Virus record (IMG/VR): IMGVR_UViG_3300042887_000309 | Coordinates: 1-32,066 of that record | DNA: 32,066 bases | Direction: 5' to 3' (one strand) | Source of the DNA: a virus | Shown here: positions 2,513-29,066 of the stretch, in pieces | Layout of the letters: every line of letters begins with the position of its first letter | Position numbering within the stretch: the first letter of the stretch is position 1 | Notes under the pieces: model-generated | What the model was told of the DNA's origin: nothing | The model's database searches: none | What the model saw: only the letters and a program-made list of their open reading frames with translations | Made by a program: the position numbers and the translations under genes

Positions 2513-2631
2513 TGTTAAATAAAAGTTACAAAAAGCATTGTATTTGTAAAATGTATTTAATCTTATAAATGTTAAAGTTTTGTTAAAATTTATATTCATA
2601 GTTTTTAATGTTAATAACTGTTGTATATTTG
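2513..2631 (+). promoter_or_regulatory. promoter P1 with tandem TGTTAA boxes
   Basis: The 196 nt between 2470 and 2667 hold no ORF. TATATTTG at 2624-2631 fits the Bacteroidota -7 consensus TAnnTTTG; a T-rich stretch starts 23 nt upstream (2601). Upstream are TGTTAA at 2570-2575 and 2581-2586, exactly 11 bp apart, with further single copies at 2513-2518 and 2609-2614. The same tandem with the same period is found ahead of the promoters at 23797 and 29059. The leader to ATG 2667 contains ACACAAACAAG, close to the leaders at 23825 and 29080. Confidence 0.75.
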
Positions 2632-2666
2632 TACTCAGATAACAACAACATAAAAACACAAACAAG

Positions 2667-2837
2667 ATGAAAAATTTAAGAACTGCAACAGTAAACGATT
2701 TTAAAGTAGGAACTACATTAATAACTTCAGAAGGATTTGAATTTAAATTAACAAACAAATATGATGATGGAGTTTGGGAATGTAAAAAAAGAGTACATAT
2801 GGAATCAGAAGCTAAATTTTATAAAGTAGCTTTGTAA
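2667..2837 (+). CDS. small hypothetical protein, 56 aa (first gene of promoter-terminator unit)
   Basis: ATG at 2667 follows promoter P1 by 36 nt; TAA at 2835-2837 overlaps the next ATG. Product MKNLRTATVNDFKVGTTLIT and onward looks beta-rich, with an EGFEFKL strand and a VWECKKR segment, like a small barrel (SH3- or OB-like), but no family is recognised. It heads a three-gene unit (2667-3219) that ends at a strong terminator and has the same promoter type as the replication genes. Early host-takeover or counter-defence proteins often have this format; that is inference only. Confidence 0.65.
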   Translation: MKNLRTATVNDFKVGTTLITSEGFEFKLTNKYDDGVWECKKRVHMESEAKFYKVAL

Positions 2838-3058
2838 TGATTACAATAACACACACGCCACAAAATTTATCTTATAATCGCTATACAATAGAGTGTAGCG
2901 ATATAGATTTACTTATTGATGATTGCATTAAAAGAATTAGACCACAAAGTAAATTGTATTACGAAAAAGAATTAAGAATAGATTTAAAAAAAAATAAAAA
3001 TTCAATGATAGATGTTCACGCAGGAATGGGAGTGTCTTATCTTGTTAAACTTATATAA
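2837..3058 (+). CDS. hypothetical protein, 73 aa
   Basis: The start overlaps the preceding stop (TAATG). Product has SYNRYTIECSDIDLLIDDCIK at its centre-left, a basic middle (RIDLKKNKNS) and ends GVSYLVKLI. No domain or signal peptide is recognised. It is the second gene of the P1 unit; tight coupling to both neighbours argues that it is expressed. Confidence 0.6.
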   Translation: MITITHTPQNLSYNRYTIECSDIDLLIDDCIKRIRPQSKLYYEKELRIDLKKNKNSMIDVHAGMGVSYLVKLI

Positions 3059-3060
3059 TT

Positions 3061-3219
3061 ATGAAACAATACGAAGTTAAAGGATGGTACAGATATGCTG
3101 ATAATGAAAAAGATTATGAGTATGCTAAAATAATAGCAGAAAATGAACAGATGGTTATTACACTATTCAAAGATATGTATACACAAAACTTCTTTGCAAT
3201 AGATATAAAGGAAATTTAA
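3061..3219 (+). CDS. hypothetical protein, 52 aa
   Basis: ATG two bases after the previous stop; ends at TAA 3217-3219, 26 nt before the terminator stem. Product MKQYEVKGWYRYADNEKDYE continues AKIIAENEQMVITLFKDMY. The pattern of a beta strand (YEVKGWYRY), a helix containing A-ENE, then a second strand resembles small phage proteins that follow the scheme 'YEVKGWYR...AEIIAENEEEA', but no function is known to me. Third and last gene of the P1 unit. Confidence 0.65.
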   Translation: MKQYEVKGWYRYADNEKDYEYAKIIAENEQMVITLFKDMYTQNFFAIDIKEI

Positions 3220-3245
3220 GTAATATTAAATTGGTTAGGGAAATT

Positions 3246-3273
3246 AGACTTACAGAAATGTAGGTCTTTTTTT
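3246..3273 (+). terminator. intrinsic terminator T1
   Basis: Stem AGACTTACA / TGTAGGTCT (one T-G wobble) closed by a GAAA tetraloop at 3255-3258, followed by an uninterrupted run of T to 3273. It closes the small P1 unit and separates it from the tail genes. Confidence 0.9.
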
Positions 3274-3280
3274 GTTTAAT

Positions 3281-3316
3281 ACAATTATGACTTTATTTTA
3301 TTATTATAAAAAAATA
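3281..3316 (+). promoter_or_regulatory. late-type leader element (copy 1; matches 13803-13838)
   Basis: Directly after T1 and before ATG 3322. TATTATTATAAAAAAATA at 3299-3316 is identical to 13821-13838, and an ACAATT lies exactly 18 nt before it in both places; about 30 of 36 bases agree. It contains no TAnnTTTG. Since transcription should have stopped at T1, a promoter for the tail genes is expected here. It may be a late promoter, or the A-rich part may act as a translation enhancer. Confidence 0.5.
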
Positions 3317-3321
3317 AACAA

Positions 3322-4002
3322 ATGAAGTTAGAGATTACAATACCAACAAAATTAAGTGAAATAAAACTTTCACAATATCAGGCTTTTTTAAAGATAGCTA
3401 AAGACAATGAAGATACAGAGTTTTTGCATCAGAAGATGGTTCAAGTATTTTGTGGAATAGATTTAAAAGAAGTTGCTGCAATTAAATATAAAGATGTAAA
3501 TGATATAACTACATCTATTGGAAATATGTTTAACCAGAATCATTCTTTTATACCTACGTTTAAAATGGGTGGAACTGAATTTGGTTTCATTCCTAATTTA
3601 GACGAAATGACATTTGGAGAATATACTGATTTAGATACTTATATTACTGATTGGGATGAGATACATAAAGCAATGGCAGTATTGTATAGACCAATTAAAA
3701 AGAAAGGCTTAAATGGCACGTATGAGATTGAAGATTACAATGGTTCAATAACATATGCAGAAGTTATGAAGTTTGCTCCATTGGATGTTTGTTTAGGTGC
3801 TACTGTTTTTTTTTACAGTTTAGGCAACGAATTATTGAAAGCTACGATAGCTTATTTGGAGAAGGACACGGAGGTACAGAATATTCTGCAACAGCAAACT
3901 TCGGACAAAAATGGGGATGGTATAGTTCAATCTATGCTATTGCTCAAGGAGACCTTAACAGATTTGACAAAGTTACAAGATTACCAATTAACCAATGTTT
4001 AA
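3322..4002 (+). CDS. putative tail assembly chaperone, short (zero-frame) form, 226 aa
   Basis: First late gene after T1. The N-terminus (MKLEITIPTKLSEIKLSQYQ) and acidic middle (IPNLDEMTFGEYTDLDTYI) are of a type found in flavobacterial siphophages in front of tail-completion genes. At codons 162-164 the frame runs GTT TTT TTT TAC (nine T, 3806-3814). The zero frame continues 62 codons to TAA 4000-4002, but a -1 slip opens a frame to 4070 (separate entry). After the T-run the zero frame has many G- or C-ending codons (GAG, CTG, TCG, CTC) unlike its neighbours, as expected if the -1 frame is the better-constrained one. The chaperone role is inferred from the gpG/gpGT-like arrangement and position. 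Confidence 0.7.
   Translation: MKLEITIPTKLSEIKLSQYQAFLKIAKDNEDTEFLHQKMVQVFCGIDLKEVAAIKYKDVNDITTSIGNMFNQNHSFIPTFKMGGTEFGFIPNLDEMTFGEYTDLDTYITDWDEIHKAMAVLYRPIKKKGLNGTYEIEDYNGSITYAEVMKFAPLDVCLGATVFFYSLGNELLKATIAYLEKDTEVQNILQQQTSDKNGDGIVQSMLLLKETLTDLTKLQDYQLTNV
3805..3814 (+). other. candidate -1 ribosomal frameshift site (G followed by T9)
   Basis: Zero-frame codons are GTT TTT TTT TAC. Tandem slippage of both tRNAs by one base on TTT TTT keeps full pairing, and the next codon becomes TTA at 3813. The product would be 164 zero-frame residues plus 85 from the -1 frame. The run is also a place where an assembly could gain or lose a T, so the alternative is a single fused ORF with a miscalled homopolymer. 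Confidence 0.6.
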
Positions 4003-4070
4003 CATATCTAACATTTGAAAAAGAAAAGAATAAAATAGAAGCTGATTTAATTAAAAGACAGAATAGATGA
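3813..4070 (+). CDS. -1 frame extension of the putative tail assembly chaperone (85 codons)
   Basis: Read from TTA 3813 after slippage at the T9 run; the frame is open to TGA 4068-4070. The product includes QKWGWYSSIYAIAQGD, a VTRLP segment and CLTYLTFEKEKNKIEADLI, which looks like a genuine conserved protein. Codons are typical of this genome (GGA, GAA, ACA, TTA). Its stop overlaps the next ATG by four bases (ATGA 4067-4070), so it, and not the zero-frame stop at 4002, sets the spacing to the next gene. An ATG at 3789 exists in this frame, but initiation there would give only a fragment; fusion by frameshift is more likely. Confidence 0.65.
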   Translation, partial: LQFRQRIIESYDSLFGEGHGGTEYSATANFGQKWGWYSSIYAIAQGDLNRFDKVTRLPINQCLTYLTFEKEKNKIEADLIKRQNR

Positions 4071-4543
4071 CATCACATTATTACGAAATAACACAAGCAA
4101 TTAAGAACCAATTAAAGGAAGATTTATTTGTAAATACAGTTACTATAGGAGATATATTTAAAGTTGATTTAAACAAGCTTACAATCTTTCCTTTGAGTCA
4201 TATTATAATTAATTCAGCAACTTATTTAGGTTCAACTTGGAGTTACAATATATCTATATTATGTATGGATATTGTAGATGAAAGTAAATCATTAACAACT
4301 GATATATTTTTAGGTAATGACAATGAGCAAGATGTTTTAAATACGCAGCTAATGGTAGTTAATAGATTCTTGGAAGTATTAAGAATGGGTAAATTTGGAG
4401 ATGATTATGAATTAGCAGGTACACCATCTTGTGAATTTTTTACAGAAAGATTTGAAAATAAAATGGCAGGAGTTACAGTTACTTTTGATATGATAATTCA
4501 AAATCAAATGAGCAAATGTCAAAATCAAACGACAAAATGTTAG
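4067..4543 (+). CDS. putative tail terminator/tail-completion protein, 158 aa
   Basis: ATG at 4067 overlaps the end of the frameshifted frame. Features include TIGDIFKVDLNKLTIFPLSH near the N-terminus, then ILCMDIVDES, GNDNEQDVLNTQLMVVNRF and PSCEFFTERFENKMAG. The N-D-N-E-Q-D-V-L-N-T-Q segment is a hallmark I recall from flavobacterial phages, next to an HK97 gp10-like gene; the size and order fit the ring protein that ends the tail tube or joins it to the head. The assignment is from context. The last 14 residues consist of two near-identical heptads (QNQMSKC, QNQTTKC) created by a 21-bp tandem duplication in the DNA. Confidence 0.65.
   Translation: MTSHYYEITQAIKNQLKEDLFVNTVTIGDIFKVDLNKLTIFPLSHIIINSATYLGSTWSYNISILCMDIVDESKSLTTDIFLGNDNEQDVLNTQLMVVNRFLEVLRMGKFGDDYELAGTPSCEFFTERFENKMAGVTVTFDMIIQNQMSKCQNQTTKC
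4498..4539 (+). repeat. 21-bp tandem duplication spanning a gene junction
   Basis: 4498-4518 and 4519-4539 match at 18 of 21 positions and each ends in an ATG (4516, 4537). It is in frame with the end of the 4067 gene, where it produces two seven-residue repeats, and it duplicates the A-rich start region of the next gene, giving that gene two possible initiation codons. Confidence 0.85.
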
Positions 4544-5043
4544 AAGTTGAAAAGACTTTAAAGAAATTTAGGGATTATGTTATCCAACAATCCAGAAGTA
4601 ATCTAACCAAAAGTGGAAAGAATAGTTCTAAAGAATTATATAATTCAATCGATGGGGAAGTAGTTACTGAAAATGGATTTAGTATAATTGGTTTTACAAT
4701 GGCAGAATATGGTGCTTACCAAGATAAAGGAGTTTCTGGTAAGATTAAAAAATACAATACACCATATAGTTATAAAAATAAAATGCCTCCTGTTAAAGCA
4801 TTTGACAAATGGATGGTAAGAAAAGGAATCGCACCAAGAAATGCTAAAGGAGAATTTCAATCAAGAAAAGGTTTACAATATGCAATAGCAAGAAGTATCT
4901 TTTTAAATGGAATTAAACCAAGTTTATTTTTCACTAAACCATTTGAAGCAGGATATAAAAAATACATAGATGTAGATTTAATAAAAGCATTTGGTCAAGA
5001 TGTTGAAACAATGGTAGATTATAATTTAAAAGATATAAAATGA
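4537..5043 (+). CDS. HK97 gp10-like neck/tail-completion protein, 168 aa
   Basis: A connector protein expected at the head-tail interface. The product has RSNLTKSGKNSSKELYNSI near the N-terminus, EYGAYQDKGVSGK, a central PPVKAFDKWMVRKGIAPR and RSIFLNGIKPSLFFTKPFE. The mixed pattern (Y-G-x-Y-x-D-x-G-V-S-G, then W-x-x-R/K-K-G-I, then R-S-I-x-x-x-G-I) fits gp10-type proteins of flavobacterial phages. I chose ATG 4537 (MLEVEKTLKKF), which overlaps the upstream stop by seven bases; ATG 4516, seven codons upstream, is in frame and arose in the tandem duplication. The stop overlaps the next ATG. Confidence 0.75.
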   Translation: MLEVEKTLKKFRDYVIQQSRSNLTKSGKNSSKELYNSIDGEVVTENGFSIIGFTMAEYGAYQDKGVSGKIKKYNTPYSYKNKMPPVKAFDKWMVRKGIAPRNAKGEFQSRKGLQYAIARSIFLNGIKPSLFFTKPFEAGYKKYIDVDLIKAFGQDVETMVDYNLKDIK

Positions 5044-5201
5044 ACATAGTAAAAATTTATAAAGGAGAAGATACAATTCCAACATTTATAATAGAGTCAC
5101 AAAATATAATTGATTCATCTGCATCTACTAATTTATGGGATTGCAAAGAAGAAATTTATATAAATGAAGATTTGATTGACACAATATATCACATAATATG
5201 A
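5040..5201 (+). CDS. small hypothetical tail-region protein, 53 aa
   Basis: ATG 5040 overlaps the previous stop (ATGA) and its own TGA (5199-5201) overlaps the next ATG at 5198. Product MNIVKIYKGEDTIPTFIIES and onward has a predicted two-strand start, then DSSASTNLWDCKEEIYINED. Double four-base overlaps on both sides strongly suggest real translation. No family is recognised; the location between neck and baseplate genes suggests a minor tail component or assembly factor. Confidence 0.65.
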   Translation: MNIVKIYKGEDTIPTFIIESQNIIDSSASTNLWDCKEEIYINEDLIDTIYHII

Positions 5202-6322
5202 AAGTAGTAAAAGTAAGAAGTCCATTTATAATTGAAGTAAATGAAACTGGACAAATAGGTAGCAAGATAGAATTATCAATATGGAATGGAACATCATACC
5301 CTACTTCTGGAGTTGGATTCTATTCTTTATCAAAATCAATTCCAAGTCCATCGCAAATAAATACATCTTATAATGTTTCAAATTATGTAAAAGAATTTAT
5401 AAACAATATAAAAGCTACTTATGTATGGTCTTATACAGACCCAGAACAAAACAATGAGTGGACAAGATTTCAAGTTAAAAGATATAAATTAGTTGGAAGT
5501 ACTTATACGCAAGTTGGCACTACAGATGAATATATAGGTGTAAATGGATTTAGTAATTATTCAGATGGTTATCAAAATCCAACTGACACAAAGATTTTAG
5601 TTTTATCAAATACAAATATTAATAATTATTATTATTCCCAAACTACATATCCAAATATTTATACTCAATATTTTAATTTATTAATTGATAAACCAACTAC
5701 TACTACAACTATTATTACTGTAAAATATGAGCGAATAGATGGTATTATTTTTTCATATACTAATAGTATTGCTGTTGGATTATTTGGCTTATTTAATATT
5801 GCAAATCCAATAACATTAGCAAAACAATTTAATGAATTTATAAATGGTTGTAAAATTACAATAACATATACTCCAGCAAGTGGAAGCCCTACTATACTTC
5901 CTTCATTTTATACCTATCCAATAGAAGAATGTAAATATACACCTGTACTTTGTGATTTTATAAATAGATATGGAGGTTGGCAAACTATTACATTCTTTAA
6001 GCAACAAACCAATACTATTTCAGTAAAAGGAACAGATTATAAATTAACTCAAAGTGCTATAAATTATAATACTGCTATAGGTCAATTCAAAACATTTAAT
6101 CTAAATGGTAAACAAACTATAAAATTAAATACAGGATTTGTAGATGAGAATTATTCAGAATTAATAACTGATTTATTATTATCTGAAACAGTTTTATTAG
6201 ATGGTAAACCTGTAACTGTTAAGACACAAGGAAGCGATTTAAAGACAAGTTTAAAAGACAAACTAATAAACTACGAAATAGAATTTGAATACGCTTATAA
6301 CCTTATAAATGATGTTGTATGA
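5198..6322 (+). CDS. putative minor tail/baseplate protein, 374 aa
   Basis: Starts MKVVKVRSPFIIEVNETGQ and then IGSKIELSIWNG, a beta-rich opening that I associate with a conserved flavobacterial phage tail protein. Further segments are YNVSNYVKEFINNI (residues about 59-72), RFQVKRYKL and a VNGFSNYSDGYQ motif; the C-terminal third (TDLLLSETVLLDGKPVTVKT) looks like a beta-sandwich. Many Asn, Thr, Ser and Tyr and few charges fit a structural protein. It overlaps the following gene by four bases. A distal tail or baseplate role is inferred from position ahead of the hub-like protein. Confidence 0.65.
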   Translation: MKVVKVRSPFIIEVNETGQIGSKIELSIWNGTSYPTSGVGFYSLSKSIPSPSQINTSYNVSNYVKEFINNIKATYVWSYTDPEQNNEWTRFQVKRYKLVGSTYTQVGTTDEYIGVNGFSNYSDGYQNPTDTKILVLSNTNINNYYYSQTTYPNIYTQYFNLLIDKPTTTTTIITVKYERIDGIIFSYTNSIAVGLFGLFNIANPITLAKQFNEFINGCKITITYTPASGSPTILPSFYTYPIEECKYTPVLCDFINRYGGWQTITFFKQQTNTISVKGTDYKLTQSAINYNTAIGQFKTFNLNGKQTIKLNTGFVDENYSELITDLLLSETVLLDGKPVTVKTQGSDLKTSLKDKLINYEIEFEYAYNLINDVV

Positions 6323-8394
6323 TAGTAGTAGGAATATATATCCAAGATTCAGTTACATTAGAATACAATAAAGTAGAATTATTTAACGATGAAAAAATAT
6401 CTGTTAATAGTTCTATTCAAAATGTAAATGATATAAGTAAAACCTATACTGATTTTAGTCAAACATTTACTGTACCTGCATCAAAACAAAATAATAAAAT
6501 ATTCAGACATTGGTACGAAAATTCAAATGATAATGGATTTAGTACATTAACAAAAGCTGATGCATATATTGAAATAGATACAATTCCTTTTAGAAGTGGT
6601 AAGATACAATTAGAAAGTGCTAATGTAAAAGATGGGCAACCACAAGATTATAGCATTACATTTATTGGTGCTTTAGGTAGTTTAAAAGATAAATTTAATG
6701 GTTTATATTTAAAAGATTTAACAGATACAACTTATGATTTTGCTTATACTGCTGATTTAGTAAGGGATAAAGTAACTACTCAAACAACATCTCCTGTACT
6801 TCCTGATATAAAATTTCCTTTAATTTCATCATCAAGATATTGGACTTATGGAAGTGGAGATAATATAAATTCATCATCTACACCAATTAGATTTAATGAG
6901 TTATTTCCTGCTATAAAATTATCAGCAATTTTAAATATGATTTCAAATGATAGTAATATTTTAAATTTAAATTTTAATGGTTCATTTTTATCTGATGCAA
7001 GGTTTACAAATGCTTATTTATGGTTAAAAAATGCAGATATTTTTGAAACAATAACAAAAGAGGATTTAATTACTTTTCAAAATACAAGTGCAATAACATA
7101 TTCACCCACATCTGGAAATCCTCAATATAATGCTTTTAAAGTACCTCCATTATTAAATGATACTGTTTACAGAAATAGTATTAATGAACCATTATTTCCA
7201 GATAAAGATTATAAATTAACATTAACAATATCTCCAACTGTTGCTGGAATTTCATATACTATAAATACATATTTTATAAGTGCAGGTTCAACAGTTGAAT
7301 ATTTATTAAGTAGTGAAACAAAAACTTCTATTGTAGGAAATCAAACTTTTATACAATCTTCTTCTTCTCAATTTAATAAAGATTCTGGATATAGATATAA
7401 AATAGTTTCTGATTCAAATATAACTTTTAATGCTTCTATTTTATTAACAAGTTACATTAGATTTAATAATACAGATTTTTACAGTTATCAAACAATTTCA
7501 AAATCAGCTAATCAAACTTTAACTGCATCTACTGTAATCCCTATTAAAAAATATATGCCAGAAATTAAAATAGAAGATTTTTTTAGTGGATTATTAAAAA
7601 TGTTTAATCTTACTTGTTATTCAACCGATGGAATAAACTATACAGTAGAGCAATTAGAAAGTTATTATACAAGTGGACAAATTAGAGATATTACAAAATA
7701 TATTAAATCGGATTCTATTAATTTAAATAGAGTAAAAACTTATAAGAAAATAAATTTTGAATATGAGAAAAGTGAATCTTTAGTTAATGTTGGTTTTATG
7801 TCAGCTAATGGAATAGAATATGGTTCTTTATTTTATAATACAAATAATGATGGAGATGAATATAATATTAAATTACCATTTGAAAATTTAAACTTTAATA
7901 ATTTACAAGATAAATTACAAGTTGGTTATTCATTAAAAACTGATTTACAAAAGTATATTCCTAAACCTGTAATCTTATATGATTATAATCCAAGTGCATT
8001 AACTACATTAACAGGAACTACATTTTATTTTTCAAATTCTACAAGTGGAAGCGGAACAGGATATACTTCTTATAAAGCATTTGGACAAGAATATTATGAT
8101 GGTACTGATACATATAGTTTAAACTTTAATCAACAACAAAGTACATTAACAAATGAATCAATAAGTGATAGTTTATATAATGAATATTACGAAAAATATT
8201 TAGCTAACATATTTGATTCTAAAGCAAGATTAATTAAAGTTAGTGGAATATTACCAACATCATTATTAACTACGCTTAAATTGAATGATAGGCTTGTTAT
8301 AAGAGATAAGAGATATTTGATTAACACGTTTACAACAGATTTAACAACTGGAGAAGTACAATTTGAATTACTAACAGACAATAGGATATTATGA
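6319..8394 (+). CDS. putative baseplate hub/tail-tip protein, 691 aa
   Basis: A large beta-rich structural protein. The N-terminal region contains VNDISKTYTDFSQTFTVPAS (about residues 37-56) and then FRSGKIQLESANVKDGQ, a combination I recall from flavobacterial phage tail-tip proteins; the middle is low-complexity and Ser/Asn-rich; the C-terminus (LNDRLVIRDKRYLINTFTTD, about 657-676) looks like a hub-type beta-barrel end. It lies between the 374-aa baseplate candidate and the tape-measure gene, where siphophages encode distal-tail and hub proteins. No peptidoglycan hydrolase domain is seen. The stop overlaps the next ATG (ATGA). Confidence 0.65.
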   Translation: MIVVGIYIQDSVTLEYNKVELFNDEKISVNSSIQNVNDISKTYTDFSQTFTVPASKQNNKIFRHWYENSNDNGFSTLTKADAYIEIDTIPFRSGKIQLESANVKDGQPQDYSITFIGALGSLKDKFNGLYLKDLTDTTYDFAYTADLVRDKVTTQTTSPVLPDIKFPLISSSRYWTYGSGDNINSSSTPIRFNELFPAIKLSAILNMISNDSNILNLNFNGSFLSDARFTNAYLWLKNADIFETITKEDLITFQNTSAITYSPTSGNPQYNAFKVPPLLNDTVYRNSINEPLFPDKDYKLTLTISPTVAGISYTINTYFISAGSTVEYLLSSETKTSIVGNQTFIQSSSSQFNKDSGYRYKIVSDSNITFNASILLTSYIRFNNTDFYSYQTISKSANQTLTASTVIPIKKYMPEIKIEDFFSGLLKMFNLTCYSTDGINYTVEQLESYYTSGQIRDITKYIKSDSINLNRVKTYKKINFEYEKSESLVNVGFMSANGIEYGSLFYNTNNDGDEYNIKLPFENLNFNNLQDKLQVGYSLKTDLQKYIPKPVILYDYNPSALTTLTGTTFYFSNSTSGSGTGYTSYKAFGQEYYDGTDTYSLNFNQQQSTLTNESISDSLYNEYYEKYLANIFDSKARLIKVSGILPTSLLTTLKLNDRLVIRDKRYLINTFTTDLTTGEVQFELLTDNRIL

Positions 8395-8549
8395 TAAAGC
8401 ACATTTTAGATTTATTAGCATTAGATGAATTTTACGGACAAAGTGAATTAATTGAAATAGCTAAAGGAAAATATCAAAGACCAACAACATTTAAACAAGG
8501 ATTTAATCAAATCAAAAGAGAAATAAAATGGCTGAAAAGAAAACAATAG
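8391..8549 (+). CDS. small conserved protein ahead of tape measure, 52 aa
   Basis: ATG 8391 overlaps the preceding stop and TAG 8547-8549 lies 22 nt inside the next gene in another frame. Product MIKHILDLLALDEFYGQSEL, then KYQRPTTFKQGFNQIKRE, is helical. I recall similar short ORFs directly in front of the tape-measure gene in flavobacterial phages. The overlap with the tape-measure start suggests translational coupling. A role as an assembly cofactor of the tape measure is speculation. Confidence 0.65.
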   Translation: MIKHILDLLALDEFYGQSELIEIAKGKYQRPTTFKQGFNQIKREIKWLKRKQ

Positions 8550-22547: not shown

Positions 22548-23023
22548 AAAATCAAGATAGGAATTGGATATTATTTTGGGTTTATGTTGTAGTGTCATCA
22601 ATTGTAATTACAATGTTATCATCTTGTGGCACAAGAAAAGTAGTGATAGAAGAAGTTAAAAAAGATTCTTTGTCCCAAATTTACACTAAAATAGAGACGA
22701 AAGAAGATATAAAGATTGAAACTAAAAATGATATTGTAACTAATGAATTTATAATTATTCCTTTAGATACTTGTAAAGATATTGTAGTAAATGGTATAAC
22801 GTACAAAAATGTTGTTTTAAGACACATAAATACAAAAGACAATAGTTTACATAAAGAAGATATAAAAGTGTCTAAAATTGAAGATAAACAACAAACTATA
22901 AAAGTTAAAGAAAATACAAAAGTTAAAAATATAAAGAAAACTTCTAATCCAATAGGGTATATTTTAATTATAATTATAATTTATTTAGTATGGCAAAACA
23001 AACGGTTGTTTCTACCCGTATAG
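22544..23023 (+). CDS. unimolecular spanin (lipoprotein with C-terminal TM), 159 aa
   Basis: Residues 10-24 are hydrophobic and run into a lipobox LSSC with C28 as the lipidation site. The body (30-135) is hydrophilic, Lys/Glu/Thr-rich with strand-like repeats (IETKEDIKIETKND), and residues 136-150 (IGYILIIIIIYLVW) are a membrane segment followed by positive charges (NKR). An outer-membrane lipoprotein with a C-terminal inner-membrane anchor is the plan of a u-spanin such as T1 gp11, which fuses the two membranes to finish lysis. Position after the amidase supports it. Confidence 0.8.
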   Translation: MKNQDRNWILFWVYVVVSSIVITMLSSCGTRKVVIEEVKKDSLSQIYTKIETKEDIKIETKNDIVTNEFIIIPLDTCKDIVVNGITYKNVVLRHINTKDNSLHKEDIKVSKIEDKQQTIKVKENTKVKNIKKTSNPIGYILIIIIIYLVWQNKRLFLPV

Positions 23024-23124
23024 AAACTAATATTTCAAGACCAAATATACACTCTAAAACAAAATCTTCTAAATTAAAATCTTCTAAAAATTATCAAAAG
23101 AAGTACAGAGGTCAAGGAAGATAA
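22990..23124 (+). CDS. small basic protein, 44 aa
   Basis: ATG 22990 lies inside the end of the spanin gene in another frame (34-nt overlap). Product MAKQTVVSTRIETNISRPNI, then Ser/Lys-rich (KTKSSKLKSSKN) ending KKYRGQGR. Very basic and without hydrophobic parts, so nucleic-acid contact is plausible. I recall similar short basic ORFs at the end of flavobacterial phage late operons. It is the last gene before a 179-nt non-coding stretch. Confidence 0.6.
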   Translation: MAKQTVVSTRIETNISRPNIHSKTKSSKLKSSKNYQKKYRGQGR

Positions 23125-23236
23125 CTATTAGCAACACACTTTGTTTTTTGTTCTGTTTATTTTATTTTTTTTTAATTATTTTTTTTAAACTTTTTTTGTT
23201 TTTAAGAACATTTCAAAATTACAGTTTTTTTTTGAC

Positions 23237-23299
23237 ATTATTGCAATAATTAAAAATTAGTTATTTACAAATATTGTTAATTGATATTATATATATTTG
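23237..23299 (+). promoter_or_regulatory. promoter P2 region with 14-bp palindrome
   Basis: The gap 23125-23303 holds no ORF and no convincing terminator. TATATTTG at 23292-23299 fits the -7 consensus but its last base is only four bases from ATG 23304, implying a leaderless or very short-leader mRNA. ATTATTGCAATAAT at 23237-23250 is a perfect 14-bp palindrome and a possible operator. One TGTTAA (23275-23280) is present, without the 11-bp partner found at P1, P3 and P4. A/T richness makes chance matches likely. Confidence 0.45.
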
Positions 23300-23303
23300 A
23301 CAA

Positions 23304-23687
23304 ATGAAAAAGCCAACAAGAAAAAGTTTAGTAATAAAATTAGATACAGTCTTTAGTCAATATATTAGGCGTAAAGATGCTATTGATGAAATTGCTACTT
23401 GTGTTACTTGTAATAAGAAAGACCATTATAAAAAACTACAATGTGGTCACTTTATGTCCAGAAGGCATTATTCAACACGTTGGGATGAAAATAATGTAGG
23501 TGTACAATGTTATGGATGCAACATAACTAATCAAGGTATGCAATATGCTTTTTCAAAGTATTTAACACAATTTGATAATAACTTACCAGATAATTTATTA
23601 ATTAAATCAAAACAAATAGTTAAATTTGCTGATGTGGATTTAGTTGAAATGATTGATAAATATACTTCTCTTTTAGGTTATTTATAA
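23304..23687 (+). CDS. ninG: NinG-like recombination protein, 127 aa
   Basis: Product MKKPTRKSLVIKLDTVFSQY followed by a metal-binding core: C33-x2-C36, C47-x-H49 (QCGHFMSRRHYSTRW) and C69-x2-C72 (VQCYGCNITNQG). This is the pattern of lambda NinG, which helps RecA/RecF-type recombination; the domain is related to HNH nucleases. It is shorter than lambda NinG (about 200 aa). Bracketed by promoter-like P2 and terminator T4, so it is its own unit next to the ERF/SSB operon. Family call firm, function inferred. Confidence 0.82.
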   Translation: MKKPTRKSLVIKLDTVFSQYIRRKDAIDEIATCVTCNKKDHYKKLQCGHFMSRRHYSTRWDENNVGVQCYGCNITNQGMQYAFSKYLTQFDNNLPDNLLIKSKQIVKFADVDLVEMIDKYTSLLGYL

Positions 23688-23713
23688 TTCTTGTTTTTTA
23701 AATTGTTTGTTAG

Positions 23714-23746
23714 AAAAGGGGATGCTTTAATTAGTGTCCCTTTTTT
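23714..23746 (+). terminator. intrinsic terminator T4
   Basis: Thirteen-pair stem from AAAAGGGGATGCT with AGTGTCCCTTTTT (three wobble pairs), loop TTAATT as in T3, and a T-run to 23746. It ends the ninG transcript 13 bases before the TGTTAA-type boxes of the next promoter. Confidence 0.9.
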
Positions 23747-23758
23747 ATTTTATAAACT

Positions 23759-23804
23759 TTAACATTTCATTAACATTTTTATATTAAAAACAGTTATATA
23801 TTTG
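23759..23804 (+). promoter_or_regulatory. promoter P3 with tandem inverted-orientation TGTTAA boxes
   Basis: TATATTTG at 23797-23804 (TAnnTTTG -7 element) with a T-rich stretch starting 23 nt upstream, as at P1 and P4. TTAACA at 23759-23764 and 23770-23775 is the tandem hexamer of P1 and P4 in reverse orientation with the same 11-bp period; 21 bases separate it from the -7 element. The leader (AACAACTTAAAACACAAAC) is nearly the same as that of P1. Confidence 0.78.
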
Positions 23805-23836
23805 CCAAAGAAATAACAACTTAAAACACAAACAAA

Positions 23837-23920
23837 ATGAAACAGAATTTAAAAGACATCGGATTAGCATTTATTTTATGGGGATTATTTATTACTGCAG
23901 TATTAATTTTAACACTTTAA
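23837..23920 (+). CDS. 27-aa single-helix membrane peptide
   Basis: First ORF of the P3 transcript, preceded by the A-rich leader AAACACAAACAAA. Product MKQNLKDIGL followed by AFILWGLFITAVLILTL: a short charged start and one hydrophobic helix long enough to span the membrane. No family is recognised. The standard leader and the next ATG three bases after its stop favour real expression. Short early membrane peptides may affect the host envelope or superinfection, but that is inference. Confidence 0.55.
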   Translation: MKQNLKDIGLAFILWGLFITAVLILTL

Positions 23921-23923
23921 CAA

Positions 23924-24103
23924 ATGGAAGATTTATTAGATTACAACAGATTTAGAATAGAAGCAATGCAAGAGAAACTTTGCAAATTAGAATTTTACAT
24001 TAATCAATTAGAAACTTACTGTTTTGAATTAGCAGATGTAAATTGTCCAACAGATTACAAAAGAATAATTAAACAAGAAATTTACAACCTTAAAACAAAA
24101 TAA
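23924..24103 (+). CDS. hypothetical helical protein, 59 aa
   Basis: Product MEDLLDYNRFRIEAMQEKLC, then KLEFYINQLETYCFEL, is helical with a coiled-coil look; three cysteines (C20, C33, C41). Starts three bases after the previous stop and ends one base before the ERF gene. No domain is recognised. Its place suggests a role in recombination or a small regulatory protein. Confidence 0.6.
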   Translation: MEDLLDYNRFRIEAMQEKLCKLEFYINQLETYCFELADVNCPTDYKRIIKQEIYNLKTK

Positions 24104-24104
24104 A

Positions 24105-24668
24105 ATGGAATTAACATTAAATCAAAAATTGTCTTTAATTCAAAAAGAATTTAAAGCATCAAAATCAAAATTCAATTCATTTGGTAAATATAACTTTAGA
24201 AGTGCTGAAGATATATTAGAAGCATTAAAACCATTTAATGAAAAGTACAAAGTGAATTTTACAATTACAGAATCAATAGTTCATAGTGAATTTTTACAGT
24301 TTCCAATGTTAGAGTCTACTGCTTCAATAAACGATGATTTAGATAGGATAACTGCATCAGCAATAGTTGGTGTTGATTTAGAACAAAAAGGAATGCAAAT
24401 GCCTCAAAAATTTGGTTCAGCAAGTTCTTATGCTAAAAAGTATGCTTTAGGTAATTTGCTTTTAATTGACGATACACAAGATGCAGATGCAACTAATAAA
24501 CACGATAAAGCACCTGTTAAAGAAGATGATTTAAAATGGTTAAATAAAAATACACCAGAATTTACAAAAGCTATTGAATATTTAAAAAATGGTGGTAATA
24601 TTGCAACAATAGAAGGTAAATACAAAATGACCGCAATAGTTAAAAATGAATTATTAAAAGTCAAGTAA
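24105..24668 (+). CDS. erf: ERF-family single-strand annealing protein, 187 aa
   Basis: Anneals complementary single strands during phage recombination. The N-terminal ERF domain shows KSKFNSFGKYNFRSAEDILE, ITESIVHSEF, an Ala-rich VGVDLEQKGMQMPQ and the signature FGSASSYAKKYALGNLLLID with DTQDADA following (about residues 103-127). The C-terminal third is helical and basic (VKNELLKVK). Typical length. It is in one operon with an SSB, and a RecE-like exonuclease lies 5 kb downstream, so both halves of a two-component recombination system are present. Confidence 0.88.
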   Translation: MELTLNQKLSLIQKEFKASKSKFNSFGKYNFRSAEDILEALKPFNEKYKVNFTITESIVHSEFLQFPMLESTASINDDLDRITASAIVGVDLEQKGMQMPQKFGSASSYAKKYALGNLLLIDDTQDADATNKHDKAPVKEDDLKWLNKNTPEFTKAIEYLKNGGNIATIEGKYKMTAIVKNELLKVK

Positions 24669-24725
24669 ATAAAGCTGAATAGTTGACAACAGTAAAAAAA
24701 GGTAAACAAATTAAATAAGTAAATT

Positions 24726-25022
24726 ATGAGTGCATTAATTAATGTAAGTTTAAGAGTTGACAAATTACCAAAAGAAAAATTTGTATCTGGAAAAGATGGT
24801 GCAGTTTATTACAACTTTACAGTTGGAGTAAATGATGAATCTAACCAATGGGGACAAAATGTTTCTTTAACTGATAGTCAAACAAAAGAAGAAAGAGAAG
24901 CTAAAAAGCCTAAAACGTATTTAGGTAATGGAAATGTAATTTGGACAAATGGAACTATTTCAGTTGCTGATAAAAAAGCAGAAGCAACTAAAGAAGAAGT
25001 AGAATCAGATTTACCTTTCTAA
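24726..25022 (+). CDS. ssb: single-stranded DNA-binding protein, 98 aa
   Basis: Protects single-stranded DNA during replication and recombination. The product starts MSALINVSLRVDKLPKEKFV with a short OB-like beta pattern (YYNFTVGVNDESNQWGQNV; GNGNVIWTNGTISV) and ends with the acidic tip ESDLPF, which mimics the DDIPF/DLPF tip by which bacterial SSBs bind partners. It is shorter than a canonical OB-fold SSB (about 110-180 aa). The context directly after erf supports the role. A double hairpin follows within 45 bases. Confidence 0.8.
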   Translation: MSALINVSLRVDKLPKEKFVSGKDGAVYYNFTVGVNDESNQWGQNVSLTDSQTKEEREAKKPKTYLGNGNVIWTNGTISVADKKAEATKEEVESDLPF

Positions 25023-25033
25023 TTAATTATTAA

Positions 25034-25093
25034 TTTAGGGATTAGTCTACCTAAAATTATACTATAAAGGGAATGTAAAAGTTCCCTTTTTTT
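25034..25093 (+). terminator. terminator T5 with preceding hairpin (possible attenuator)
   Basis: The terminator is AAAGGGAA / TTCCCTTT (25066-25073 and 25082-25089) with an eight-base loop and a T-run to 25093. Just upstream, TTTAGG (25034-25039) pairs with CCTAAA (25050-25055). No -7 element lies between T5 and ATG 25111, only AACAAACAAACAAACAA, so downstream genes must depend on read-through from P3. T5 probably lowers or conditions expression of the downstream genes relative to erf and ssb. Confidence 0.8.
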
Positions 25094-25110
25094 AACAAAC
25101 AAACAAACAA

Positions 25111-25959
25111 ATGCAATTAAATAAAGACGAGAAAAGATTATTAATGGAAGTTTTTGAAGCAGAATGCTTTATTAATCCATTAGAAAAGATAGTACATCCA
25201 AAACCTGCAATTTCATTTGGTGTTAAAAGTTATGAAACTAAAGATGGTAAAATAGAATATCCTACACCTATTGGAACTTATGGCAATTTCAGCTTTGTAC
25301 AAGCTCCTCCTAAAAGTAAAAAAACATTCTTTGTATCATTATTATCAGCAATTTATTTAGCAGATGAATTAGAGCAATTTGGAGGCGATTTAAAGGCAAA
25401 TAGAGATAATAAGCACCTAATACATTTTGATACTGAACAAGGCAATTTCCACGCTGCAAATGTGTTTAAACGTCCTATTGATATGACCGGTATAAAAACA
25501 GATAAATACCATACTTTAGCATTAAGGCAATTAAGTTTTAAAGAAAGAGTTGAATTTATAGAATATTATCTTTACGATAAACTTGAAGCAACAGATATTG
25601 GATTAGTTATAATTGATGGAATAGCTGATTTATGTTCTGATGTAAATAATATTGAGGAATCAAATGCAGTTGTTCAGAAGTTAATGAAATGGTCAAAAGA
25701 ATTAAATTGTCACATAGTAACAGTTATACATTCTAACTTTGGAACAGATAAACCTACAGGACATTTAGGTTCATTTTTAGAAAAGAAAACAGAAACACAA
25801 ATACAATTAGAATTAAACACAGTTAATAAAGGATTAGTAACCGTAAGTTGTAAACGCTCAAGAAACGCACCATTTGAAAACTTTAGTTTTAAAGTAAATA
25901 ATTTTGGATTGCCACAAGTTGAAGGAGCATTTTACGACCCATTAAAAGATATATTTTGA
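25111..25959 (+). CDS. RecA-like replicative ATPase/helicase (RepA/AAA_25-like), 282 aa
   Basis: A RecA-fold motor of the RepA/DnaB type, probably the phage helicase or loader. The P-loop position reads QAPPKSKKTFF (64-74) in which both usual glycines of GxxxxGK[ST] are replaced but K71-T72 remain; LIHFDTEQGN (103-112), LVIIDGIADL with D169 as Walker B, and IVTVIHSNFGTDKPTGHLGS (202-221) follow the family order. I recall similar glycine-poor K-S-K/R-K-T P-loops in relatives. Start follows T5 by 18 bases. The stop overlaps the next start (TTGA). Confidence 0.78.
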   Translation: MQLNKDEKRLLMEVFEAECFINPLEKIVHPKPAISFGVKSYETKDGKIEYPTPIGTYGNFSFVQAPPKSKKTFFVSLLSAIYLADELEQFGGDLKANRDNKHLIHFDTEQGNFHAANVFKRPIDMTGIKTDKYHTLALRQLSFKERVEFIEYYLYDKLEATDIGLVIIDGIADLCSDVNNIEESNAVVQKLMKWSKELNCHIVTVIHSNFGTDKPTGHLGSFLEKKTETQIQLELNTVNKGLVTVSCKRSRNAPFENFSFKVNNFGLPQVEGAFYDPLKDIF

Positions 25960-26252
25960 AAACAACAATTAAAAACCATTTAGAAGAATTACAAGTTTCA
26001 AACGAAAGAATGTTACTTTATCATTCAGATAATAAAATGTTAATAAGTTTTTTTAAAGATTTAAAAGAAAAACTTGTATATTTACAAGAATTAACAGATA
26101 TGGAAGCAAGATATAATTTAACTCCAATAGCTGATTGTATTGAAGAACTATTAGAAGTTGATTCTGAATTAACACATATTGATTTTTCAATCCAATTAAA
26201 GGAAGTAATATCTGAAAAGAAAACAGCAAAAGTAAACGCAAAATTATTTTAA
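25956..26252 (+). CDS. hypothetical protein with TTG start, 98 aa
   Basis: If TTG 25956 is used, the start overlaps the upstream stop by four bases (TTGA), matching the ATGA couplings elsewhere, and the product is MKTTIKNHLEELQVSNERML and onward. The first in-frame ATG is at 26010 (residue 19), which would leave a 54-nt gap. The product is helical (KDLKEKLVYLQELTD; IADCIEELLEVDSE) with a C-terminus rich in Lys. No family is recognised. It may be a small replication partner of the ATPase. Confidence 0.6.
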   Translation: MKTTIKNHLEELQVSNERMLLYHSDNKMLISFFKDLKEKLVYLQELTDMEARYNLTPIADCIEELLEVDSELTHIDFSIQLKEVISEKKTAKVNAKLF

Positions 26253-26253
26253 T

Positions 26254-26472
26254 ATGATAACATTAACTTTAGGTTTTATTTTATGTACTGCATTTATAAT
26301 AGCACAATTTTACGATTGTGAAATAATTATAAATCCAATTAAAGGTGTAATGCTTGGGGCATTGTACAACGATGATGAATTTGATGACGAAACAGAACAC
26401 ACAATACAAGTTCTAATATTAATAATATCATTTTCATTTATATGGACAACTTCAACTGGCTGGAACAAGTAG
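26254..26472 (+). CDS. small membrane protein with two TM segments, 72 aa
   Basis: Hydrophobic segment one at about 1-20 (MITLTLGFILCTAFIIAQF), a polar loop with the signature KGVMLGALYNDDEFDDETEH and segment two at about 48-66 (TIQVLILIISFSFIW). The loop G-A-L-Y-N-D/E followed by an acidic stretch and H-T-I/L-Q is a pattern I recall in flavobacterial phages. Its 3' end overlaps the sigma-like gene by 31 nt in another frame. Function unknown; an early membrane protein acting on the host envelope is possible. Confidence 0.65.
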   Translation: MITLTLGFILCTAFIIAQFYDCEIIINPIKGVMLGALYNDDEFDDETEHTIQVLILIISFSFIWTTSTGWNK

Positions 26473-26984
26473 CAAAACACCACAAAGAATGGATTGAAAT
26501 AATTCATAAATTTGGTGAATATGATTACGCTGAAGATATAGTACAGGAAAGTTATATAGCATTAATAAAATATGCTGATGCTTCTAAACTTATTGACTTA
26601 AATGGTAAAGTCAGAAAAGGATATATGTTTTTCACATTGAAATCTTTGTTCTTTCAGTTCTACAATAAGAAAATGAAAATAACAAAAGTACCTATTGATG
26701 GATGCTGGGAATTATTTGATGATTCAAACATAGAAGAACACAAGGCATATAATGATATATGTATGTTAATTGATGATGAATTAGAAAATTGGCATTGGTA
26801 CGATAGAAAACTGTTTAAACTTTATAGAGATACTGATATGTCAATGAGAGATATTGCAACTGAAACCAACATAAGTTTAATATCTATATTCCATTCAATT
26901 AAAAATTACAAAGAAATATTAAGTAATAAATTTCAGAAGGATTATCAGGATTACATTAACAATGATTACAATCAAATATATTAA
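26442..26984 (+). CDS. sigma-factor-like protein, 180 aa
   Basis: Resembles a reduced sigma-70 (ECF type) factor: residues about 27-46 contain the region 2.1/2.2-like YDYAEDIVQESYIALIKYAD; residues about 118-160 hold a region 4-like helix-turn-helix, RKLFKLYRDTDMSMRDIATE followed by NISLISIFHSIKNYKEIL. Between them is an unusual spacer with VPIDGCWELFDD. Length is close to ECF factors (about 180-200 aa). A phage-encoded sigma could direct the late leaders at 3281 and 13803. Functional evidence cannot be read from sequence; a DNA-binding protein that is not a sigma factor is the alternative. Confidence 0.65.
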   Translation: MDNFNWLEQVAKHHKEWIEIIHKFGEYDYAEDIVQESYIALIKYADASKLIDLNGKVRKGYMFFTLKSLFFQFYNKKMKITKVPIDGCWELFDDSNIEEHKAYNDICMLIDDELENWHWYDRKLFKLYRDTDMSMRDIATETNISLISIFHSIKNYKEILSNKFQKDYQDYINNDYNQIY

Positions 26985-26999
26985 TTAAAAAAAACTAAA

Positions 27000-27377
27000 A
27001 TGGCAAAAAGAAAATCAGCAGGATTAGGAGATTCAATAGAAAAACTAACCGAAGTAACAGGAATTAAAAAAGTAGTTGAAATGTTTAGCGAAGCAACAGG
27101 TATTGATTGCGGATGTGATGAAAGAAAAGAAAAGTTAAATAATTTATTTCCTTATAACAGAAATATTAATTGTTTAAACGAATCAGATTATAATAAATTA
27201 ACAAAGTATTTATCTGCTCAACAAACTACATTAACACCAATAGAGCAACAAGAGATTTCAGACATCTATTTTAACGTATTTAACTATCGTTTACAGATTA
27301 GTTCTTGTGCAAGTTGTTGGAAAGGTAAGCTTGATGAATTAAGACGAGTTTACAACGAATATAAAATAAATGAATAA
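27000..27377 (+). CDS. conserved phage protein with paired cysteines, 125 aa
   Basis: Starts MAKRKSAGLGDSIEKLTEVT. The GLGD-x-IEK-x-T-x-x-TGI opening is followed by an internal near-repeat (EATGIDCGCDERKEKLNNLF) and a C-terminal SSCASCWKGKLDELRR; two CxC/CxxC pairs (C37 and C39; C102 and C105) suggest metal binding. I associate this N-terminal pattern with a family frequent in flavobacterial phages but know of no function. It overlaps the next gene by eight bases. Confidence 0.65.
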   Translation: MAKRKSAGLGDSIEKLTEVTGIKKVVEMFSEATGIDCGCDERKEKLNNLFPYNRNINCLNESDYNKLTKYLSAQQTTLTPIEQQEISDIYFNVFNYRLQISSCASCWKGKLDELRRVYNEYKINE

Positions 27378-27765
27378 CTGGTCAGAAGTTGATTTATTTA
27401 ATTGGTTAAAAGAAAATGTATATCCTGATTTAGTTAAAGCTAAAAATCAAATGTCAAGGTGGGATTGTTACAGTCCCATCAAAGGACATAGGTTAGAACT
27501 TAAATGCAGAAAAACACATTACAATACTTTATTACTTGAAAAGAAAAAGTACGATGCAATGAAACAAGAATGTGAAAAGCATTTAGATACACCAATGTAT
27601 TTTAATTCAACTCCAAAAGGAATATACAGTTTTAACTTAAATCTAATTGTCCCAGAATGGGAACTTAATAATAAGAACCCTGCAACAACACAATTTTATA
27701 ACACACAAAGAATAGAAAAAGAAGTAGCATATTTAGAACTAACAAAAGCAAAACAATGGAAGTAA
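27370..27765 (+). CDS. putative PD-(D/E)xK nuclease, 131 aa
   Basis: Residues 30-60 read RWDCYSPIKGHRLELKCRK and then THYNTLLLEKKKYD: the D32-x10-E43-L-K45 arrangement is the catalytic core of PD-(D/E)xK nucleases, and the C-terminal portion (GIYSFNLNLIVPEW) provides the flanking strand of the fold. Length is compact, as for Holliday-junction or repair-type phage nucleases. The start overlaps the preceding gene and the stop the next one. The substrate is unknown. Confidence 0.7.
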   Translation: MNNWSEVDLFNWLKENVYPDLVKAKNQMSRWDCYSPIKGHRLELKCRKTHYNTLLLEKKKYDAMKQECEKHLDTPMYFNSTPKGIYSFNLNLIVPEWELNNKNPATTQFYNTQRIEKEVAYLELTKAKQWK

Positions 27766-28112
27766 ACGCAATACAACAAGAGTATTTAAAATCAGTAATA
27801 TTAAGTCAATTACTGTTAGAATCAAATGAGAATCTATTTTTTACACAACAGTACAAGCAACAAATTAAACACAAGATAAATAGTTTAAATAAAGACTTGG
27901 AAGAAATAGTAAGAAATGAATTTAAAATCATTTACAATACAGACCCTGAAACAACAACTAATATATTAAGGAGTATAGAAGAAATAGTTTCTAAACTGCA
28001 AACAAGTTCATTAGATGAATTAGTATTTATAAATGCAGTAATAGACAAATACAAAGAAAATGCTGAATGGTTCAGTGAGTATGCATCAACAGAATTTTTA
28101 AAATTAGACTAA
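27756..28112 (+). CDS. hypothetical helical protein, 118 aa
   Basis: Entirely helical: LKSVILSQLLLESNENLFFT, QQIKHKINSLNKDLEEI and NILRSIEEIVSKLQTSSLDE. No cysteine or catalytic motif. It starts inside the nuclease gene (10-nt overlap), so the two may act together. The stop overlaps the following ATG by one base (TAATG). Confidence 0.6.
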   Translation: MEVNAIQQEYLKSVILSQLLLESNENLFFTQQYKQQIKHKINSLNKDLEEIVRNEFKIIYNTDPETTTNILRSIEEIVSKLQTSSLDELVFINAVIDKYKENAEWFSEYASTEFLKLD

Positions 28113-28279
28113 TGAAATTAACATATACATCTTACGGAAAAACATCAACAATAGAAACAGAAAATGATGACATTGATATTGATGAATTAGGACAAATGCT
28201 TTATAATTTATGTTTAACACAAACTTGGTCACCTGTAATATTAAAATCAATATTTAAAAAGGATGTTACAAATGGCTAA
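28112..28279 (+). CDS. small hypothetical protein, 55 aa
   Basis: ATG 28112 shares the last base of the upstream stop; TAA 28277-28279. Product MKLTYTSYGKTSTIETENDD followed by IDIDELGQML: two strands then an acidic turn and a helix. The TIETENDDIDI segment followed by a short helix is a recurrent theme in small phage ORFs in my recollection. It overlaps the next gene by eight bases. Role unknown. Confidence 0.6.
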   Translation: MKLTYTSYGKTSTIETENDDIDIDELGQMLYNLCLTQTWSPVILKSIFKKDVTNG

Positions 28280-28535
28280 AAAGCAATCAGAAAAGTATTC
28301 TCCAAAAGAAGATGAAATACAAGCTATGAGATTGTGCTGGAAGAATGATTTAGCTTATGTAATACAACCAATACAGAACACAAAAATGTATCACGTAATT
28401 AAGTTTCAAATATCAGACAACTTAAAGATATATACTTTTGAAATAAATAAACAAAAAATAGAATTTACAGAATATGAAGCATCTAAAAAGGTTATGGAAT
28501 TATACACACAACATTCTAAAAGATTTAGTAAATGA
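28272..28535 (+). CDS. hypothetical protein, 87 aa
   Basis: ATG 28272 (MAKKQSEKYSPKEDEIQAMR) is preferred to ATG 28263 because it matches the MAKK style of starts here and keeps the overlap with the upstream gene at eight bases. After a helix (EIQAMRLCWKND) come strands (LAYVIQPIQNTKMYHVIKFQ; KIYTFEINKQKIEFTEYEAS) and a final helix (KKVMELYTQHSKRF), an alpha/beta layout resembling small DNA-associated phage proteins. No family is assigned. Confidence 0.6.
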   Translation: MAKKQSEKYSPKEDEIQAMRLCWKNDLAYVIQPIQNTKMYHVIKFQISDNLKIYTFEINKQKIEFTEYEASKKVMELYTQHSKRFSK

Positions 28536-28684
28536 ATAATGAAATGAAATTTGCAGAATGGGTATCTGAAAATCATTATGTATTAATTGATATTGATAAA
28601 TATGGAAATAGAATTTGGAAAAATGAAACAGAAACATTAGATACAAAATTGTTGTATCGTAAATTTAAAAAAATGAACCGATGA
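28532..28684 (+). CDS. small hypothetical protein, 50 aa
   Basis: Start and stop both overlap neighbours by four bases (ATGA at 28532 and at 28681). Product MNNEMKFAEWVSENHYVLID has a helix and a strand, then DKYGNRIWKNETETLDTKLL. The two couplings argue that it is translated. No recognised family. Confidence 0.6.
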   Translation: MNNEMKFAEWVSENHYVLIDIDKYGNRIWKNETETLDTKLLYRKFKKMNR

Positions 28685-28881
28685 AAGATAGTATAGTAGA
28701 ATCAGTTATAGAGCAATTTAAACAACGTTCTGAATTTGGAATTTATAAATATGGTATTACATTAGATAGAGAAGATTTAAATGCTTTAGATTGGCTACAA
28801 CACCTTCAAGAAGAATTAATGGATGCAACACTTTATATTGAAAAATTAAGAAAAAAATTAAAACAATATGACAAAGAGTAA
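28681..28881 (+). CDS. short MazG-like protein (nucleotide pyrophosphohydrolase fold), 66 aa
   Basis: Product FKQRSEFGIYKYGITLDRED (residues 13-32) and WLQHLQEELMDATLYIEKLR (38-57). The E44-E45-x2-D48 cluster plus K-Y-G-x-T/x-L-D is the MazG-like signature of NTP pyrophosphohydrolases. At 66 aa it is about half a typical MazG domain, so it may function as a multimer or be a reduced relative. Phage MazG proteins hydrolyse (d)NTPs or ppGpp-type alarmones; which applies cannot be said. Confidence 0.6.
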   Translation: MKDSIVESVIEQFKQRSEFGIYKYGITLDREDLNALDWLQHLQEELMDATLYIEKLRKKLKQYDKE

Positions 28882-29005
28882 ACAATCAGCACTACAAAGA
28901 ATCCAACGTATAATGAAATTCAATTATAACAGGGGATTAAATTCAGAAAGAGTAAATGAAGTATATCGTAAAATAATAAATGAAAAGCTATCCGTAAAAA
29001 GATAG
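28868..29005 (+). CDS. small basic protein, 45 aa
   Basis: Starts 14 nt inside the MazG-like gene in another frame; ends at TAG 29003-29005. Product MTKSKQSALQRIQRIMKFNY, then RGLNSERVNEVYRKIINEKL, is basic and helical. Its last codons form part of the T6 terminator stem, so the terminator overlaps coding DNA. DNA or RNA binding is possible, no family is recognised. Confidence 0.6.
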   Translation: MTKSKQSALQRIQRIMKFNYNRGLNSERVNEVYRKIINEKLSVKR

Positions 29006-29014
29006 TTTTTTTTT
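28983..29014 (+). terminator. intrinsic terminator T6
   Basis: Ten-pair stem AAAAGCTATC / GATAGTTTTT (one G-T wobble), eight-base loop CGTAAAAA, and T-run to 29014. The 5' arm lies in the end of the upstream CDS. It ends the P3 transcript just ahead of the TGTTAA boxes of P4. Confidence 0.9.
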
Positions 29015-29015
29015 A

Positions 29016-29066
29016 TGTTAATTTTATGTTAAAATGTTTTTTATAAACAAATAATGTTTATATTTG
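29016..29066 (+). promoter_or_regulatory. promoter P4 with tandem TGTTAA boxes
   Basis: TATATTTG at 29059-29066, T-rich stretch beginning 23 nt upstream, and TGTTAA at 29016-29021 and 29027-29032, again 11 bp apart and in the same orientation as at P1; 26 bases separate the second box from the -7 element (37 at P1, 21 at P3). The leader AACAATTTAAAAAACAAAC leads to ATG 29094. It begins right after T6. Confidence 0.78.

Follow-up and report, generated by a model that had tools for sequence, protein, structure and literature searches.

Phased pairs of TGTTAAA boxes upstream of sigma-A promoters in Bacteroidota phages as candidate sites of a host response regulator

Pho boxes, the sites of PhoB and PhoP, are direct repeats of 11 bp that regulators of the OmpR family recognize (TTAACA repeats for Bacillus subtilis PhoP), and cyanophage promoters use such boxes, that is, a host two-component regulator. 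In the IMG/VR virus record IMGVR_UViG_3300042887_000309, a complete record of 32,066 bases analyzed here as a whole (the window), we examined three promoters, designated P1, P3 and P4, at which two TGTTAA hexamers stand 11 bp apart upstream of an identical core element, TATATTTG. Direct repeats are also described for VicR of Streptococcus mutans, with the consensus TGTWAHA-N4-TGTWAHA, and for the WalR box, TGTWAH-N5-TGTWAH (PMC4168254). For RprY, binding to its own promoter has been reported in Porphyromonas gingivalis (PMC5706477), and we found no consensus for it in the literature searched. The sigma-A promoter of Bacteroidota consists of TAnnTTTG, which spans -12 to -5 in Flavobacterium psychrophilum, with TTG or TTTG at -33 (PMC9723704); beyond this host -7/-33 consensus, little is known of transcription control in Bacteroidota phages. 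A response-regulator box on a phage promoter is a known kind of element; the literature searched held no report of the present setting, and nothing on TGTTAA in Flavobacterium promoters, on PhoP TTAACA or on pho boxes in Bacteroidetes phages. What is new here is how widely Bacteroidota phages use the boxes, and the rules by which these are phased. On balance, we consider it rather probable that the boxes are sites of a host response regulator of the OmpR/PhoB family that would activate sigma-A promoters of the phage.

Paired boxes, their spacing and their phasing

The window contains exactly three copies of TGTTAA-N5-TGTTAA, at 2570 (+), 23759 (-) and 29016 (+), at the positions given by an earlier note on this DNA, which had also proposed a comparison with shuffled sequence; pairs proved rare there, with a mean of 0.05 by chance and none of 100 dinucleotide shuffles reaching three. 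The pairs read TGTTAAAGTTTTGTTAA at 2570 (+), TTAACATTTCATTAACA at 23759 (TGTTAATGAAATGTTAA on the - strand) and TGTTAATTTTATGTTAA at 29016 (+). At P1 the tandem boxes (2570..2586, +) lie at -66..-61 and -55..-50 if TAnnTTTG is placed at -12..-5, and 37 bp separate them from TATATTTG at 2624..2631 (+). The P4 boxes (29016..29032, +; -55..-50 and -44..-39) stand 26 bp before TATATTTG at 29059..29066 (+), and those of P3 are inverted (TTAACA-N5-TTAACA on the + strand; 23759..23775, -; -50..-45 and -39..-34), 21 bp before TATATTTG at 23797..23804 (+), so that the range of 21-37 bp claimed earlier holds. By itself TATATTTG was not significantly enriched in the window (10 observed, 6.4 expected), and with two mismatches permitted the paired motif showed no excess (26 compared with 22 by chance), which places the signal in exact or near-exact pairs.

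The cores themselves are of the host kind, each with TAnnTTTG and a -33 element about 19-23 bp upstream. T-runs lie at about -34 in all three promoters, at 2602..2606 (+, TTTTT) in P1 and 29037..29042 (+) in P4, and read TAGTTTTG in the homologous promoters of relatives. The earlier note had placed the start of a T-rich stretch 23 nt before the core; the stretch is there and starts about 21-22 nt before it. Neither TATATTTG nor this stretch belongs to the new signal: TATATTTG is an ordinary Bacteroidota sigma-A -7 element and the T-rich stretch is the -33 element. Over 76 bases the P1 core and leader resemble those of Flavobacterium phage 11b (83%), which retains them without the boxes, marking the boxes as a separable module.

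For a wider view, we scanned IMG/VR for the pattern with the gap between pair and core left free from 20 to 45. The gaps were two-peaked, at 26-28 (51) and 36-38 (68), with only 2 at 34-35 and zero at 29-33; once the seed sites were masked, the same loci contained 37 TGTTAA pairs at distance 11, compared with 0-5 at any other distance. For a stricter set, viral loci were taken for their homologs of the terminase, ERF and nuclease proteins, regardless of motif, and near-identical contexts were removed. Here the N5 spacing gave 57 unique sites and each other spacing from N1 to N16 only 0-4. The core stood at gap 26/27 (20 sites) or 36/37 (30 sites) in 50 of the 57, the remaining 7 having no core within reach, and no core was found at other gaps. 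With 26/27 and 36/37 as the dominant gap classes, P4 (26) and P1 (37) of the window represent both. The proposal of a shared, helically phased operator pair at an activator position is thereby supported, since these gap classes recur in dozens of phages, as is the remark that P1 and P4 differ by one helical turn, with almost nothing between the two classes. The inverted arrangement with gap 21 was found in three distinct relatives among the homology-selected loci, and the P3 pair belongs to this second, separately phased position class. As the earlier note had asked of related phages, pairs are present at their homologous promoters.

Across 32 virus records, of which about 20 were chosen through a motif match and 11 by homology, there were 114 exact pairs and 2 for the pattern read backwards; the 11 homology-chosen records alone gave 16 and 1. 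Box-bearing phages are of different kinds and span 22-412 kb, with as many as 21 pairs in one record (368 kb) and 14 in another (280 kb), and the phage isolate elemo has two pairs at gap 27. In the 280-kb phage (G061, the record of L215), 13 of the 14 pairs fall inside 19 kb, at 13-32 kb, a cluster that may be the early region of that phage.

Box consensus, host genes and candidate regulators

When only TTAA was demanded in both boxes, position 2 was G in 92%/89% of the two boxes, position 1 was T in about 80% and position 7 was A in about 80%, giving the refined consensus TGTTAAA-N4-TGTTAAA. Of 86 TGTTAA hexamers at a phased position, 56 were accompanied by another 11 bp upstream; elsewhere this was true of 1 of 56. 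Taken as a sequence, the consensus is equal to that of VicR and fits the WalR box exactly, having two direct TGTWAH half-sites 5 bp apart.

The number of exact pairs in host genomes was not clearly above that of the reversed control, and for this reason we relied on location instead. Among the host pair loci examined (3 kb each, simple ORF criterion), 28 of 30 pairs lay outside long open reading frames (ORFs). Their sites are the phosphate operon DUF47-PiT, the operon DUF4870-PadR-PspC, the gene of a PhoB-like regulator and the DNA between rprX and DUF1573; apart from the two regulators and DUF47, host gene names were judged from sequence rather than from database matches. In the collection scan, the PadR-operon spacing accounted for 65 of 120 host matches, and DUF1573 genes of Crocinitomicaceae formed another group. 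The promoter of the DUF4870-PadR-PspC operon in Flavobacteriaceae (L001-L120, e.g. L001, L005 and L012) has tandem boxes 40 bp before TATATTTG and, between the two, a palindrome like GTACTATG-N4-CATAATAC, probably combining PadR autorepression with activation. The earlier note had described the boxes as a phage regulon signal outside the promoter consensus; they are indeed absent from that consensus, and their presence at host genes means that they are not private to the phage.

Against a background of 809 upstream regions from one genome (Flavobacterium chilense), with test genes from several, an exact pair was present upstream of all five Flavobacterium RprX orthologs (0/809 in the background; p ~3e-13) and TGTWAH-N5-TGTWAH upstream of 13/27 orthologs of the PhoB-like gene (4/809; p ~3e-18), p-values that are optimistic because of the single-genome background and because the genomes are related and non-independent. 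The RprX orthologs (44-52% identity), of which 30 genomes gave five from Flavobacterium, were chosen independently of the motif, as were the PhoB-like genes and the DUF47-PiT operons below. Host OmpR/PhoB-family regulators with such sites at their own genes thus exist. Since PstB had no match over the family cut-off in five flavobacterial genomes, we took DUF47-PiT for the phosphate test; of the eight such operons in 28 genomes, four have an exact inverted pair of TGTTAA boxes and three more a pair with one mismatch.

To judge from these sites and from protein models, the likeliest candidates for the binding protein are RprY and a PhoB-like regulator conserved among Flavobacteriaceae. The regulator beside RprX is best matched by the RprY model (250 bits, under the cut-off of 370), and the PhoB-like regulator by PhoB models, also under cut-off, with a DNA-binding domain that matches the solved VicR, WalR and PhoB domains. 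The OmpR-type DNA-binding domain Trans_reg_C was found in none of the 32 phage records, some of which are possibly fragments. Of the binders suggested earlier, a host factor is the better candidate, in the form of an OmpR/PhoB-family response regulator; a small DNA-binding ORF of the phage is unlikely, because the pair is present at host regulator and phosphate genes and in diverse phages of 22-412 kb. In some other Bacteroidota (L717, L718, L719, L721 and L722), the regions upstream of rprX contain GTTAA repeats at 10 bp rather than 11.

Proposed mechanism and competing explanations

We infer the identity of the protein, its binding and the resulting activation as follows. A host response regulator of the OmpR/PhoB family would bind the paired TGTTAAA half-sites, 11 bp apart on one face of the DNA. 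At P4 it would sit just upstream of the -33 element (about -55/-44), at P1 one helical turn further upstream (about -66/-55), and at P3 on the inverted sites (-50/-39). The bound regulator would recruit or stabilize host sigma-A RNA polymerase at otherwise ordinary TAnnTTTG promoters, and the phage would thereby place its transcription units under an activator that answers to a host sensor. A host regulator would account for the hexamer with its conserved G, for the 11-bp repeat and its phasing, and also for the copies at host regulator genes and the occurrence of the boxes in phages of 22-412 kb. Many unrelated phages have the tag at the same two distances from the core, and it stands at host two-component-regulator and phosphate-uptake genes as well, so such phages probably turn on genes through an activator under the control of a host sensor.

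Several observations weigh against this reading. The phage isolates 11b and FpV9 contain no pair, nor do 3 of the 32 related records, so activation would be dispensable for such phages. Between the two orientations the position shifts by roughly half a helical turn, an offset left unexplained by a simple model. Five flavobacterial genomes (22 Mb) yielded 32 exact pairs and 21 reversed ones, without a clear excess. At the PhoB-like gene, the boxes have the form TGTTAY in place of TGTTAAA. Finally, the exact 11-bp pair was not found at rprX outside Flavobacterium; most RprX homologs there match in the kinase domain only and so provide no test of the hypothesis.

The box positions and helical phasing would also suit an UP element, with two C-terminal domains of the polymerase alpha subunit (alpha-CTDs) on T/A-rich repeats 11 bp apart (about -41 and -52) boosting the promoter without any regulator; the hosts have alpha-CTD, phages favor strong promoters, and a weak NGTTAA excess appears at about the same place in 287 F. 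chilense promoters. We regard this as unlikely, since position 2 of the box is G in about 90% of cases in AT-rich DNA, unlike an A-tract, the boxes are hardly visible in general host promoters, and in hosts the copies are concentrated at genes for regulators and phosphate uptake. An UP element in general host use was rejected, as the F. chilense promoters gave the weak excess only and flavobacterial ribosomal RNA (rRNA) promoters have A-tracts, without boxes. Those rRNA promoters (L606-L608) share the A-tracts CGAAAAAAAAGATTAAAAAA upstream of TAnnTTTG, themselves a candidate UP element. Some other host DNA-binding protein, possibly acting through a repressor site on early genes or a silencing site, appears quite unlikely: host copies do occur at PadR-operon, TetR, MarR and AraC genes, and binding by a response regulator is read from sequence, but 11-bp direct repeats with the VicR/WalR consensus are a signature of the OmpR/PhoB family, and sites upstream of -33 are activator positions, a repressor being expected over the core.

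That the phage encodes its own activator (a small DNA-binding ORF, the sigma-like ORF at 26442-26984 or the DnaA-C-domain protein) and so defines a phage regulon is suggested by the far greater density of sites in phages (114 in 32 records) than in hosts (32 in 22 Mb), and by the sigma-like protein in 24 of the 32 records. Yet this protein is missing from the site-rich phages G051, G052, G055, G060 and G061, a winged-helix effector domain occurs in 0/32 records, and the identical pair stands at host regulator genes, and we doubt this explanation. The ORF at 26442-26984 resembles, with a match under the cut-off (TIGR02985, E 1e-6), an ECF-like sigma-70 factor of Bacteroidota and could drive a later gene class. 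Chance, or functionless inheritance of one ancestral promoter, might be considered for relatives of common descent with near-identical spacer and core in some; we rejected it as extremely improbable on the spacing and reversed-pattern counts (57 sites, compared with 0-4 at other spacings, once near-identical copies had been taken out; 114 pairs, compared with 2 reversed) and because the classes recur at three promoters that are not homologous to each other and in phages of 22-412 kb.

If a host regulator does read the boxes, a position-coded activator site common to phages of very different size would provide a promoter grammar for their genomes, which would predict early operons and tie infection to the state of the host two-component system, and TGTTAAA-N4-TGTTAAA would serve as a first proposed consensus for RprY or PhoB-like regulators of Flavobacterium. 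It is possible, though we would not call it probable, that the site of one host response regulator has become, by convergence, the standard activator site of many unrelated phages of Bacteroidota, which range from about 30 kb to jumbo size, and that phage expression across the phylum is thereby wired to a single host sensor of envelope or phosphate state.

Surroundings of the promoters and comparison with known systems

The window encodes a terminase with 55% identity to those of phages of Flavobacterium psychrophilum. All three pairs precede small ORFs with leaders of the AAACAAA-ATG type; the one read from P1 (MKNLRTATVNDFKV...; 2667..2837, +) has the leader ACAAACAAG-ATG. Directly 5' of P1 lies P0 (2513..2558, +), the decayed remnant of an older box-bearing promoter, with TGTTAAATAAAAGTTAC and a truncated core; in relatives it is intact with TATATTTG. 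Terminator-like hairpins, judged by eye, stand just 5' of P3 (23718..23746, +, with a T-run) and P4 (28988..29014, +, CTATC...GATAG with T9). The P3 operon comprises two small ORFs, an ERF recombinase, a protein in the position of the single-stranded DNA-binding protein (no Pfam match) and an AAA ATPase. That of P4 comprises a PD-(D/E)XK nuclease (29484-30260), a C5 cytosine methyltransferase (30257-31207) and, adjoining the latter, a protein with a DnaA C-terminal helix-turn-helix domain (PF08299; 31213-31761). A 105-bp exact direct repeat lies near both window ends (1-105 and 31666-31770), each copy followed by a diverged version of one small ORF (MPDITMC...), which points either to a duplication or to a genome that is circular or permuted and contains a variable spot.

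Among the known systems, UP elements are alike in position and helical phasing, and the present boxes differ from them in the strong G, the defined hexamer and their absence from rRNA promoters. With the pho boxes of PhoB and PhoP the present boxes share the 11-bp direct repeat, and host copies stand at the DUF47-PiT operon and the PhoB-like gene, whereas the phage boxes are not tied to phosphate genes. As to RprX/RprY of Bacteroidota, Flavobacterium has the exact pair in the rprX/DUF1573 intergenic region, and outside this genus it was not seen at rprX. The WalR/VicR (YycF) box of Firmicutes shares the direct repeat, here TGTTAAA-N4-TGTTAAA; the boxes described here belong to another phylum and are mostly on phage promoters, and no WalR ortholog exceeded the family cut-off. 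Overall, every core is of the Bacteroidota sigma-A kind (PMC9723704), and while neither that consensus nor the homologous promoter of phage 11b includes tandem boxes, the promoters in the window carry them as an added upstream module.

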